Shown: in pieces, positions 55,010-58,971 of the stretch | Position numbering within the stretch: the stretch's first letter is position 1 | How the letters are laid out: every line of letters begins with the position of its first letter | DNA from: Rubripirellula sp. | Lineage (GTDB): Bacteria; Planctomycetota; Planctomycetia; Pirellulales; Pirellulaceae | Assembly (NCBI GenBank): GCA_029245125.1 | Contig: JAQWPZ010000177.1 | Location: 1 to 64,000 of the forward strand | Reading direction: 5' to 3' | DNA length: 64,000 nt | Translations under genes and position numbers: made by a program | The notes under the pieces: model-generated | Databases searched by the model: none | Told to the model about the DNA's origin: nothing | The model's input: the letters and a program-made list of their open reading frames with translations, nothing else

Positions 55010-55378
55010 ATGATTCGTCTTACCTTTGCTCTTTGCTTGGCATTCGCTTTTTGTTTCGTTGGTTCGAACGCCGATGCAGCAGAGCCAGCCGATTCTGGTG
55101 TTTCTCAGTCGACTCTTTCGGCAATGGGCCTTGGTGGTATGCAAACCATCGACCGCGCTGAGTCCTCGGAGATTCGTGGACAGGGATCCGTAACTTGGGG
55201 TCGATCTTACTCGCGAACGACGATTCGGATCTTCGGAAGTACGTTTAGAAGCGGTAGCACGAACGGATACCGCAACAGTTTCCCAAATTTCTCCGCTGGC
55301 GGATCGTTTTCCTACTCGAACTCGTCATTTTCGCCGTTCATTTATGGCGGTGGATTCTCGATTGCTGGTGGATTTTAG
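55010..55378 (+). CDS. Small secreted Ser/Gly/Phe-rich protein
   Basis: A 122-residue protein with a signal peptide (MIRLTFALCLAFAFCFVGSNADA) and no family I recognise. The mature part opens with SQSTLSAMGLGGMQTIDRAESSEIRGQGS and then becomes rich in Ser, Gly, Phe, Tyr and Asn (GSVTWGRSYSRTTIR, NSFPNFSAGGSFSYSNSS, FIYGGGFSIAGGF). The composition resembles secreted fibre- or amyloid-forming subunits. The LSAMGLGGM stretch loosely recalls double-glycine leaders, and a C39-like peptidase gene lies 3 kb downstream; the link is inference. The ATG at 55010 follows AAAGGA. A strong terminator follows, so it may be highly expressed as a single-gene transcript. Confidence 0.78.
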   Translation: MIRLTFALCLAFAFCFVGSNADAAEPADSGVSQSTLSAMGLGGMQTIDRAESSEIRGQGSVTWGRSYSRTTIRIFGSTFRSGSTNGYRNSFPNFSAGGSFSYSNSSFSPFIYGGGFSIAGGF

Positions 55379-55803
55379 TTGAAGCGGAGGCAAGTTCAGC
55401 CTCAGGCAAACATCACGATGCAGTTGAAGCCGGTTCTTTGAACCGGCTTTTTTCGTTTTTCGAGTCACGAGTCCACCGCATCTTGGATGCCAGCGACAAG
55501 AGGTTCAGTTAGACCGATTCTCTGCATCGATCTTGTATTTGGGTTTGTCGTGTTGCTGCGTTTCATTTCGGATCACTCTGTCATACGTCTTGTTCCCGAT
55601 CTGTCGCCCCTCCGTATTTCTTTGTCTCTCATTCCGCCGATGTTCCGATCCAACCGCATAGACGGGATTCTGTCTTTGATTGCCGTTATAGCAATCGATG
55701 CATGGAATGACGTCGCGTTTTGAAATTGGAAGCTTAGCGAAACCGGGGCCGCAACTGTGAAGGCGCGGATGGTTTTATAAACACTTACGGATGAGTAAGA
55801 GAA
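55379..55803. other. Intergenic region with a terminator
   Basis: 425 bases between the small secreted protein and the first beta-barrel gene. It contains the terminator at 55427-55453; the rest is promoter region without a recognisable gene. Confidence 0.6.
55427..55453 (+). terminator. Rho-independent terminator after the small secreted protein
   Basis: A 9-bp perfect stem (aagccggtt at 55427-55435, aaccggctt at 55441-55449), a 5-nt loop and a TTTTTT run. Confidence 0.95.
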
Positions 55804-56871
55804 ATGAGAAAAAATCTCGCTTTTGCAGTGTGCCTGTTGTGGATGACAAGCAGCTCATTGCTTCATGCTGATGAAACTTGCGATACCGATTGGTGTTCAG
55901 CAGGTTGTGATTCAGCCCCTTCGTTTTTTTCCGGCAACGGATGTAGTAAAGGTTTGTACCTCGGAGTCGAGGCAACGTACTTGGCACCGCTATACGACGA
56001 GTCCCTCGCAACGTTCTCGTTGATTGATTTTGGTGCTGGGGTGCAGGTGATTTTGCAATCGGAATTTGGGACAGCAGAAGAGCTGACCGGTGCTCCGCGA
56101 ATTGTGTTTGGCTACGCAGGGAATAACGGTCTCGGGGTTCAAGCCCGCTACTGGGAATTAACGAGTTCTGCCAGTCAGAATGATATCCCCGATCCAATCG
56201 CAGGAAGTCAGTTTCAGGTATTGGGTGGTGAGGACCGTTTCAATGCATACACGATCGACCTGGAACTGACCAAAGCTTTTTGTCACCACGGTTGGGACAT
56301 GATGGGCACATTCGGTGTGCGACATGGAAGCATCGACCACCAACGGGCCGAGCAAGCTGTCGGTGCTGTCGAATTCGCTGCTGACCAGTTTGATGTGTTT
56401 TCGATGGGAGCCCAAACTGGCGAAGAATTTCATGGTACCGGTTTGACCTTTAGTTTGTCGGGATTGAAATCGATCAAGCCTTGTCGAGGATTAGCTTTTT
56501 ACTCGTCGGCACGCGGTTCGACTCTGTGGGGATCGGCCGAAACCCTCGCAGTGACTTATTCGAACGTTACCACGCCGGTGGGCGGTGGAGGCAGCATCGA
56601 TGGTGGGATCGACACGAATGACGTGACAATGTTCATTGGTGAAATCGGGGCGGGTCTGCAGTGGTCGCACTGTGCCAACAGCTACAGCGGTCGGATGTTT
56701 GCCCGAGCTGGTGTTGAGTACCAGTATTGGGGCGCATCGGATGGTTACGCACTCACTCAGTCTTCATCAGGTACCGCGCCGGGGGTCAGTGACGGAACTG
56801 TCACTGCCTTGGGTGGTAGCCAAGAAACCCACCTGATCGGTTTGGCCCTCATGGCTGGCTACGCGTGGTAG
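55804..56871 (+). CDS. Outer-membrane beta-barrel protein (Lpg1974-like)
   Basis: A 355-residue exported protein. Signal peptide (1-22), a Cys-rich segment (CDTDWCSAGCDS...GNGCSKG, about 26-48), then alternating amphipathic strands such as LYLGVEATYLAPLY, RIVFGYAGNNGLGVQARYWEL, GLAFYSSARGSTLWG, GRMFARAGVEYQYWG and THLIGLALMAGYAW, ending in an aromatic residue as outer-membrane barrels do. It resembles the Lpg1974-type pore-forming group that is abundant in planctomycetes; this is a topology-level call. It precedes another barrel gene and a C39-like peptidase gene in the same direction, with 214 bases before the next start. Confidence 0.75.
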   Translation: MRKNLAFAVCLLWMTSSSLLHADETCDTDWCSAGCDSAPSFFSGNGCSKGLYLGVEATYLAPLYDESLATFSLIDFGAGVQVILQSEFGTAEELTGAPRIVFGYAGNNGLGVQARYWELTSSASQNDIPDPIAGSQFQVLGGEDRFNAYTIDLELTKAFCHHGWDMMGTFGVRHGSIDHQRAEQAVGAVEFAADQFDVFSMGAQTGEEFHGTGLTFSLSGLKSIKPCRGLAFYSSARGSTLWGSAETLAVTYSNVTTPVGGGGSIDGGIDTNDVTMFIGEIGAGLQWSHCANSYSGRMFARAGVEYQYWGASDGYALTQSSSGTAPGVSDGTVTALGGSQETHLIGLALMAGYAW

Positions 56872-57085
56872 AAACCGGTGGTTACACCGATTCGTTGACT
56901 TGCCGCAGTGGAAAAGTTGCCACGCTTACGCGGCACAGGTTTGGTGCAGCATAAATCGTTGCGCGCAGAGGAACGGCAGCGGTGATGGTCGGTCAGCCAG
57001 CTTATCCCCGCAAAAATTGGTTTCGTAAAATTTCGCGACCAATCTCTTGAAACTTCAGCCCCTCAGGGAAGAGGAAACTCGCAAG

Positions 57086-58270
57086 ATGTACGATTCTCAA
57101 AACAGGCGATGCCTCGTCATCGCGACACTTCTATTTGTAAGCATGCCGCTTGGGTTTGGGACGGTCGCGGAAGCAAGAGAGCCCAGTACGGGATTTGATA
57201 GTGCACCGATCGGTAGTGCTTTCCCGCGTAGCTTGGCACTGGATGATGTCTTCTACTTCCAGCCTGGCGACGAGGCTGCTGGCGAAAATCGGCTCACCCA
57301 AATTTCGCTTGCACGGCGGCAGGCCCTCGGTCCGCAATTGGAAAATCCTCCGGCGGGCATCGCAGACCTGCCTGAGCCCATTGCCGCTGCCTCGGTTGGT
57401 CAAGGTGCGTCGGCATCGGGCGCGACCGAATCTCCGATCGAAAGATATGGAGAAGCGCCGGTGGATCGCTCTCGTCAATTCCTGCGCAGCGTAAGCCCAC
57501 TGCTTCGTCCTGGGCAGTGGCAATTTGACTACGGCTTGGTTTACGCACTTCAAGAATTCAATTTTCCCGTTTTGATTGGTGCGAATCCTGCGCGTGCTGA
57601 TTTGCGTTCGCGGGCCTTATTCGTTCCGCTGGCCGTGCGGTATGGATGGAATCGGCGAACCCAGTTATTTGCGAATTTGCCTGTCGGTTGGGCGAATACT
57701 GAGCTCGCCACGCCGGTCGTTGATGATGACAGCGGCAAGGGCGGCCTTGGCGATTGTACTTTTGGAATAACGCGTTTGCTGCATCAGAATTCATGCAACG
57801 GTCAGACATTGATCGGCACACTTCGCGCTGTTGCACCGACAGGTACAGAGGCTAGTCCGCTTGTCTTGACGGGGGCGGGACTTGGGAACGGTGTTTGGCG
57901 GATGGGTGGGGACTTGCTGGTGGTGCGTTCACTCGATCCATGTGTGCTGTTTTATGGAGCGGGATACACCTACAGCTTTCAAAGAGATTTTGACGGCGTT
58001 CAAGTCGAACTCGGGCATGAGTTTCAATACAACTTCGGACTCGGTTTTGCCGCCAATGAACGGGTCACCCTAAGTACTGCTTTCCTAGGTAGTTACATCA
58101 CTGAGACCCGGTTCAATGATCAGTTGGTTCCGAATTCGGATCAGGAGCCACTTCGCATCCGGTTGGCGGCAACCATCGCACAGAACTGCCGAATCGTAGA
58201 GCCCTTCGTGAACTTTGGATTGACCGAAACCGCACCCGCAGCAGAATTGGGGATCGTATGGACACGGTAA
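57086..58270 (+). CDS. Outer-membrane transporter-like beta-barrel, coupled to a C39 peptidase
   Basis: A 394-residue exported protein. Signal peptide (1-29, cut near EAREPS); an N-terminal region (30-125) rich in Ala/Gly/Pro; then SVSPLLRPGQWQFDYGLVYALQEFNFP and a beta-barrel (RSRALFVPLAVRYGWNRRTQLFANLPVGWANTE, YGAGYTYSFQRDFDG, VTLSTAFLGSYITETRF, IVEPFVNFGLT...LGIVWTR). The barrel course matches the transporter/MetA-type outer-membrane family and, in general layout, FapF-like exporters. I chose the ATG at 57086 behind a GAGGAAA site; a TTG at 57047 is not favoured. Its stop overlaps the start of the C39-like peptidase, so the two are translated together. Confidence 0.8.
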   Translation: MYDSQNRRCLVIATLLFVSMPLGFGTVAEAREPSTGFDSAPIGSAFPRSLALDDVFYFQPGDEAAGENRLTQISLARRQALGPQLENPPAGIADLPEPIAAASVGQGASASGATESPIERYGEAPVDRSRQFLRSVSPLLRPGQWQFDYGLVYALQEFNFPVLIGANPARADLRSRALFVPLAVRYGWNRRTQLFANLPVGWANTELATPVVDDDSGKGGLGDCTFGITRLLHQNSCNGQTLIGTLRAVAPTGTEASPLVLTGAGLGNGVWRMGGDLLVVRSLDPCVLFYGAGYTYSFQRDFDGVQVELGHEFQYNFGLGFAANERVTLSTAFLGSYITETRFNDQLVPNSDQEPLRIRLAATIAQNCRIVEPFVNFGLTETAPAAELGIVWTR

Positions 58271-58971
58271 TGGAGACCGGCTTTCGTCGGCGGTTCGTTT
58301 CATTCGCGGTGATTGCACTCTTGGGATTTTGTGGGGCCGCGTCCGCGCAGGTTTCGCTTTCACAGCGGAGTGTTGTTCGTGATCCTTCCTTTCGTATTGC
58401 GAAGCCAGTCAAAAGTTGGCGTGAGATCAAAACGGAAGGGATTGTGATGCAGCAACGCGATTATTCTTGCGGTGCGGCAGCACTGGCAACGTTGTTGCGT
58501 TTCTATTGGGGCCATCGTATCAATGAGGCGATGGTGCTGGATGTCATAGAGCAGCAGTTGTCGCCGGAAGAGTTGAAAGAACGGGAAAGTTCGGGACTCA
58601 GCATGGCGGACATCAAGGAAGCGGCGGTCGAACTGGGCTACCAGGCGACGGTCGGAAAGGTGAGCTTCGAGGACCTCACCGGCAGCAAGGTTCCCGTGGT
58701 TGTCGTCATCAACTTGGGTGGGCAGAATCACTTCGTGGTGTTTCGCGGTGTGGCTGCTGGCTGTGTTTTTCTGGCCGATCCGTTGCGCGGGAATCTGCGG
58801 ATCACGGAGAGTTCCTTTCAAAACAGTTGGCAGGAAAACGCCGTACTCGTCGCCGCACCCAAGGGTGAGACCCAATCCGAGCGTTCGCAACTTGCGATCA
58901 AGCCCGCCGAACTCTATCGAGGCAGCCTGAATCGACAAGTGATCCGACGCGCGACTTCGGCAGGGTTCTGA
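58258..58971 (+). CDS. C39-like cysteine peptidase, FapD-type
   Basis: A 237-residue exported single-domain C39-like peptidase. An N-terminal signal or anchor (about 12-30), then the catalytic Cys in QQRDYSCGAAALATLL (Cys71), SGLSMADIKEAAVELGY, the catalytic His in GGQNHFVVFRG (His158) and Asp in LADPLRG (Asp174). Unlike ABC-transporter C39 peptidases it has no transporter domains; it resembles the stand-alone periplasmic type found in Fap amyloid operons. Two starts overlap the upstream stop: ATG 58258 with GGGGA ahead of it (chosen) and ATG 58270 (TAATG). It would process an exported substrate. Confidence 0.85.
   Translation: MDTVMETGFRRRFVSFAVIALLGFCGAASAQVSLSQRSVVRDPSFRIAKPVKSWREIKTEGIVMQQRDYSCGAAALATLLRFYWGHRINEAMVLDVIEQQLSPEELKERESSGLSMADIKEAAVELGYQATVGKVSFEDLTGSKVPVVVVINLGGQNHFVVFRGVAAGCVFLADPLRGNLRITESSFQNSWQENAVLVAAPKGETQSERSQLAIKPAELYRGSLNRQVIRRATSAGF

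Follow-up and report, generated by a model that had tools for sequence, protein, structure and literature searches.

A leader-defined family of secreted proteins linked to a FapD-type C39 peptidase and a FapF-like barrel in planctomycetes

In the functional-amyloid (Fap) system of Pseudomonas the peptidase FapD is periplasmic, and its catalytic Cys is needed for the secretion of FapC (PMC5557850). FapF forms the pore of this system and FapE is N-terminally processed, whereas FapD's own target was described as undetermined and the Fap proteins showed no canonical C39 site (PMC5557850, PMC6173800). The full Fap operon has been found only in the Proteobacteria (PMC3792158); for co-localized fapD-fapF homologues, Rouse and colleagues (2018) report five phyla beyond the Proteobacteria (PMC6173800). 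The nap island of Neisseria follows a similar logic, with a stand-alone C39 peptidase (NapP), a FapF-like channel (NapF), several leader-bearing small proteins (NapA-C) and no ABC transporter (PMC11798529). In LahT, ComA and PCAT1 the C39 peptidase belongs to an ABC transporter, as a domain on the cytoplasmic side. The leader consensus of LahT/ComA comprises Leu at -12, Glu at -8, Leu at -7 and Val/Leu/Ile at -4, followed by Gly-Gly/Ala/Ser, with residues -4, -7, and -12 occupying a hydrophobic groove (PMC6363468). Here, we analyzed a four-gene module in a stretch of 64,000 nucleotides from Rubripirellula sp. (positions 1 to 64,000 of contig JAQWPZ010000177.1; hereafter the window), and find that its small secreted protein belongs to a diverse family sharing a leader with C39-like spacing, which occurs in the same genomes as a FapD-type peptidase and a FapF-like barrel.

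The module comprises four consecutive genes on the + strand, P0001 to P0004, each starting with a Sec-type signal as read from the window (table 1). A preliminary description had proposed an envelope export or processing module at this site, consisting of a small secreted protein, two outer-membrane barrels, and a stand-alone C39-like peptidase; all four genes lie where it placed them, and every coordinate proved correct. Judged from its sequence, P0004 is a stand-alone C39 peptidase exported through Sec, with FapD as its closest kin: it matches Pfam Peptidase_C39 (5.8e-21), NCBIfam FapD (2.8e-29; 102 bits against a curated cut-off of 330, so that it is no equivalog), and NCBIfam FilB (2e-28, likewise under the curated cut-off). 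The proposed catalytic residues Cys71, His158, and Asp174, as well as the oxyanion Gln65, are kept in 22–23 of 23 aligned homologues including three proteobacterial FapD-type proteins, and the predicted fold (pLDDT mostly 78–90 across residues 71–200) corresponds to that of the peptidase domains of PCAT1 and ComA and of LahT in its leader-bound structure 6mpz. A variation on the single peptidase gene was seen in G045, with two tandem copies beside one FapF-like barrel (L072:4273-6055).

P0003 is related to the amyloid exporter FapF, given its match to NCBIfam FapF (5.3e-17; 61.7 bits, cut-off 700) and the finding that a three-sequence profile retrieves the solved FapF chains (5o65; E 6.8e-22, residues 138–383). 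The kinship to FapD and FapF suggested in the preliminary description is thus borne out for both proteins. P0003 also weakly matches NCBIfam FilC (0.009) and Pfam Phenol_MetA_deg (2.7e-4). An alignment of 25 FapF-like proteins shows that the PTG motif, proposed as a lateral gate of FapF (PMC6173800), is kept in nearly all planctomycete homologues; the same holds for the segment at residues 122–143, which directly precedes the first strand, at the position of the helical plug of FapF, and may therefore act as a plug. The N-terminal region of P0003 is Pro/Gly-rich, with no clear heptads by eye; in FapF this region forms a trimeric coiled coil.

No Pfam or NCBIfam family match was found for P0001. 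A search of 60 close relatives recovered it in seven genomes, all of which encode the peptidase, several within a few kb; these homologues have a Sec-type signal and then a conserved stretch, and the remainder of each protein differs. We modeled this stretch as a leader (model A1; 36 aligned leaders, 27 columns) and counted residues in 97 non-redundant leader proteins, numbering back from the proposed cut. Members of the family are built of a Sec signal, a leader of about 27 residues ending in [VI]RG.G, and a hypervariable Ser/Gly-rich part. The leader has Gly at -19 (95%), Leu/Ile at -18 (97%), hydrophobic residues at -15 (95%) and at -12 (I/M/V/L; 93%), Ser/Thr at -11 (84%), Glu/Gln at -8 (65%), Gly/Ala at -7 (91%), Val/Ile at -4 (96%), Arg at -3 (94%), and Gly at -2 (92%); position -1 is variable (Q 22%, L 17%, A 15%, also K and T), and +1 is Gly in 73%. 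P0001 is the sole leader protein detected in the genome of the window at E<=0.01 (2.5e-9). In its register Met44 is -15, Ile47 is -12, Glu51 is -8, Ile55 is -4, Arg56 is -3, and Gly57 is -2, which places the predicted cut before Gly59, with a possible shift by one or two residues.

Three of the four positions that characterize C39 leaders (-12, -8, -7, -4) fit, the exception being -7, and the Gly-Gly, Gly-Ala, or Gly-Ser pair at -2/-1 is not a feature of the family. Based on this comparison, the leader is spaced like a C39 double-glycine leader yet follows a Sec signal, so that a cut would occur in the periplasm. A hydrophobic signal-like stretch lies just upstream of the leader in 92 of the 97 proteins; after signal removal the leader would therefore be exposed in the periplasm, alongside the Sec-exported peptidase. 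The leader, which was absent from the preliminary description, is the most informative feature of the module. Behind it, the mature parts measure 16–163 residues (median 94), are rich in Ser, Gly, Ala, Thr, and Phe and poor in Lys (0.9%) and Arg (1.9%), and are mostly free of Cys (87/97). Up to ten paralogues occur per genome, with eight to ten in several close relatives, some of them on other contigs.

The distribution of the leader follows that of the peptidase. Among the 60 close relatives, the leader was detected in exactly the 15 that encode the peptidase at E <1e-30 and in none of the other 45, an absence which rests on the sensitivity of the 27-column model; the barrel is present in 14 of these 15, and in the fifteenth the peptidase sits at a contig end. 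A second sample took in 297 genomes spread evenly over the class; 21 of them encode the leader, 21 the peptidase, and 21 the barrel, and these are the same 21, indicating that the gene set is not a product of chance. Eighteen of the 21 supplied no sequence to the leader model under their own labels, but one of them, G261, is the same assembly as the training locus L026, which leaves 17 that were truly held out. A chance match of this kind would have a probability of ~1e-32 if genomes were independent, which they are not; however, the genera g1, g40, and g41 are each mixed for the module, with leader and peptidase always changing together, and the pattern therefore does not merely reflect shared ancestry. 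For g1 alone, where 11 of 22 genomes have the module, the chance match is ~1e-6. A phylum-wide search found no leader outside the class. Two extra peptidase matches outside the class are weak (~1e-11 to 1e-12), one lying in a 730-residue frame and one containing an internal stop. The count of module peptidases also leaves out weak hits of G014, G054, and G056 (E 9e-9 to 3e-4), which in G014 and G056 fall within frames of 772–1084 residues.

A connection of the small protein with the peptidase, initially only surmised, is now supported by the shared leader and the matching presence and absence. None of the patterns named beforehand as speaking against a module was observed: neither a separation of barrel and peptidase nor a lack of the small protein in most relatives, nor a predicted structure of an ordinary porin with no FapF-like plug, the model of P0003 being of low confidence. 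Synteny, which had been suggested as a check, is likewise preserved, with the module order kept across genera and families. In the compact form P0002, P0003, and P0004 are co-linear and a convergent leader gene follows ~100–300 bp past the peptidase (G328, G108, G144, G074, G130, G085, G112, and G272); the window differs in that its leader gene lies upstream on the same strand. P0002 itself gave no Pfam or NCBIfam family match. Its homologues occur in 20 of the 21 class genomes with the module and also in 15 genomes without it, and P0002 thus belongs to a wider family. As for the two barrels originally proposed, that of P0003 is supported by the relationship to FapF, whereas P0002 remains a putative beta-barrel read from its sequence, with no family model behind it.

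Within the module the genes of P0003 and P0004 overlap by 13 nt, and an in-frame ATG at 58270, forming TAATG with the P0003 stop, is an equally good alternative start for P0004. The stem and T tract behind the strong terminator ascribed to the small protein are the best terminator-like site of the region, although the number of such sites (9) is no higher than in shuffled DNA (7.6 +/- 3.2). A translation-related gene cluster adjoins the four genes. In the larger clusters of one genus, and in G028, an actin-like protein is encoded upstream of the FapF-like barrel, at a distance of one to three genes (L066:7276-8430 of G015, L030, L031, L032, L034, L038, L039, L041-L044, and L074); the L066 copy matches NCBIfam MamK (1.3e-79) and BeeR (3.9e-43), both under cut-off. 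In several relatives, at L069:13-9258 (G007), L066 (G015), and L067 (G019), leader-protein genes directly adjoin a type II secretion/type IV pilus-like operon, with GspE (3.8e-83) and GspF (7.9e-90) in L069 and a pseudopilin in L066.

Table 1. Positions of the module genes and their features in the window.
Feature	Position	Strand	Basis or remark
P0001, 122 aa, proposed substrate: Sec signal (residues 1-23), leader, hypervariable Ser/Gly/Phe-rich mature part	55010..55378	+	
Leader of P0001, residues 33-58, QSTLSAMGLGGMQTIDRAESSEIRGQ	55106..55183	+	Leader model A1, 97-protein consensus, C39 leader register of PMC6363468
Intrinsic-terminator-like hairpin and T tract, 3' of P0001	55426..55460	+	11-bp stem spans 55426-55450
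P0002, 355 aa, secreted, probable outer-membrane barrel, partner gene of the module	55804..56871	+	
P0003, 394 aa, putative FapF-like outer-membrane exporter	57086..58270	+	NCBIfam FapF, solved FapF profile match
Conserved P0003 segment, residues 122-143, G..APxDxSRxFLRxxTxLLxPG	57449..57514	+	Alignment of 25 FapF-like proteins
PTG motif of P0003, residues 251-253	57836..57844	+	Alignment; PMC6173800
P0004, 237 aa, Sec-exported stand-alone C39 peptidase, FapD type; Gln65, Cys71, His158, Asp174	58258..58971	+	

Compared with the described systems, the module seems to work like Fap and Nap but is not a Fap operon. It shares with Fap the Sec-exported stand-alone C39 peptidase, the FapF-type barrel with its PTG motif, and the conserved segment before the barrel, and Aeromonas FapE has a comparable ELxxLRGR segment behind its signal peptide. 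It differs in scoring under the NCBIfam cut-offs, in belonging to another phylum, and in having substrates that share a leader rather than the FapE sequence. Among the four window proteins and four planctomycete leader proteins scanned with NCBIfam, rather than the whole genome, none matched FapB or FapC; the FapE model matches the Aeromonas protein (2.3e-12) and none of the scanned planctomycete leader proteins. The parts shared with nap are those listed above, but Nap peptides are cationic, microcin-like GG peptides of less than 10 kDa and the holin-like NapH has been suggested for inner-membrane passage (PMC11798529), whereas in the module a Sec-like signal precedes the leader and the cargo is larger and poor in Lys/Arg. 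Fil of Acinetobacter resembles the module in its C39 peptidase FilB and its barrel FilC, whose models match P0004 and, weakly, P0003, and in FilA, which has a Sec-like signal and an xLxxxTGQ segment; it differs in its gene set (FilA, FilE, FilF), in matches lying under cut-off, and in FilA being unlike the leader proteins beyond this motif. With LahT, ComA, and PCAT1 there is a common protease fold and leader spacing (-12, -8, -4, -2), but P0004 is a free protein with a Sec signal, and the leader of its presumed substrate follows one.

A similar motif is found at proteobacterial stand-alone C39 loci (L161, L163-L167), where neighboring secreted proteins carry xLxxh[R/T/A/V]G behind the signal peptide: ELAHLRGR in Aeromonas FapE, ELATMRGG and ELGEVAGK in Polymorphobacter, KLDDVRGG in Cupriavidus, VLARQRGG in Croceicoccus, ELDRSVGR in Indioceanicola, and ALSAATGQ in FilA. 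Because the pattern was chosen by eye and is present in 3 of 95 unrelated secreted-type proteins, a relationship to the planctomycete leader is only suggestive. When the plasmid collection was searched with FapE, no record came up besides its Aeromonas source. A further resemblance concerns ten leader proteins (A4; e.g., L031:18458-18988 and L044:3159-3653), whose shared mature motif GxSFISGMLxDPxTxSxxxG vaguely resembles the start of Aeromonas FapE (HGISYFGIEFISS). Neither Pfam nor NCBIfam gave an identity for the scanned proteins of this GISFISGML type, and homology to FapE, suggestive by eye, finds no support from the FapE model.

We consider it likely that the four genes together export a small surface protein in two steps. 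P0001 would cross the inner membrane through Sec and lose its signal peptide. In the periplasm, P0004 would recognize the remaining leader in the manner of a double-glycine leader, through the hydrophobic residues at -15, -12, and -4 and the near-invariant Arg-Gly at -3/-2, and would cut beside the RG-x-G motif. The Ser/Gly-rich mature part, ~64 residues in P0001, would then exit through the FapF-like P0003 to the cell surface, where its most likely role is that of a building block of a fibre or matrix, with P0002 as a putative second outer-membrane partner.

Several observations weigh against this reading. P0001 of the window sits 2.9 kb away from the peptidase and is followed by a terminator of its own, and the single leader gene of the L025 genome lies away from the peptidase. 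The leader deviates from known C39 leaders, with -1 variable instead of G/A/S, G/A instead of Leu at -7, and Arg instead of Ala at -3, which calls for a recognition code other than the one of LahT. The AlphaFold model of P0003 from three sequences reached a pLDDT of only 32, and we therefore infer its plug and pore from sequence. With respect to the Proteobacteria, the xLxxh[R/T/A/V]G pattern was drawn by eye from the very proteins in which it is described, and a scan of the Aeromonas fap record with the leader model gave no match.

An extension of the two-step export reading is that the mature proteins are true functional amyloids, forming Fap- or curli-like fibres with P0001 as a subunit; we judge this possible, with a chance somewhat below even. 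It is favored by the kinship to FapD and FapF, by the composition and the general lack of Cys in the mature parts, and by one leader protein (L155:6730-7338, in G200) that is encoded beside its own peptidase and has five Q[GS]G repeats at an exact 23-residue spacing, a periodicity matched in 0 of 5000 shuffles. These repeats look like curlin repeats and make this protein the best amyloid candidate of the leader family, but Pfam gave no match to it, curlin repeats included, nor any family for the other scanned mature parts. Among solved structures this repeat protein hit only a ribonuclease (E 0.099), judged to be chance. Internal periodicity at p<=0.01 is found in only 6 of 90 mature parts, their hypervariability would be unusual for a single fibre-forming fold, and the planctomycete proteins tested yielded no FapB, FapC, or FapE. 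No FapA homologue was seen among the scanned proteins either; the preliminary reading of a Fap-like system is supported in part, for the module and its kinship though not for amyloid.

A conserved leader, hypervariable cargo, and up to ten paralogues per genome are also typical of bacteriocin precursors, and the nap island has the same three-part logic; the diverse peptides could then act on other or sibling cells, in antagonism, signaling, or autolysis. We consider this unlikely, as the mature parts are long and poor in Lys/Arg and Cys, unlike the cationic Nap peptides, no immunity-like gene was seen, and the genome of the window holds only one leader gene. Still less probable is that the peptidase trims the N-terminal linker of the barrel to open or close the pore while the leader only targets the protein and remains uncut: cleavage of FapF by FapD has been raised (PMC5557850), and the overlap of the P0003 and P0004 genes suggests tight coupling, but against it stand the leader's spacing, which is that of a C39 substrate, and its co-occurrence with the peptidase throughout the genomes tested. 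That the genes are unrelated neighbors, an ordinary uptake porin (Phenol_MetA_deg comprises barrels of the uptake type), a peptidase directed at some other substrate, and an independent small protein with its own terminator, is already contradicted by the co-occurrence across the 297 genomes and the conserved synteny, and can practically be dismissed.

A Fap-like system in planctomycetes had been put forward as new. The fapD-fapF pairs reported outside the Proteobacteria (PMC6173800) take away part of this novelty; new, as far as the open-access literature shows, is the leader-defined family of candidate substrates, whose Sec-exported members follow a periplasmic C39 peptidase and a barrel from genome to genome. 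Tentatively, in a judgment that is nearly balanced, we propose a general Gram-negative route in which periplasmic peptidases of the FapD class cut proteins with a Sec signal and a C39-type leader, and barrels of the FapF class release them, the leader and not the cargo defining the substrates. If this were true, Fap, Fil, and Nap would each be one instance of the route, and what FapD recognizes, including the cut in FapE, could be read from the leader. Around 100 proteins of diverse sequence share only the leader and track the peptidase in every sampled genome, which points to a machine of the FapD/FapF type that may handle many unrelated cargos. The family provides a defined, mutable recognition sequence with a predicted cut site, and suggests where to look in FapE and FilA. 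The planctomycetes, whose surface biology is poorly known, gain a candidate export system for surface proteins.

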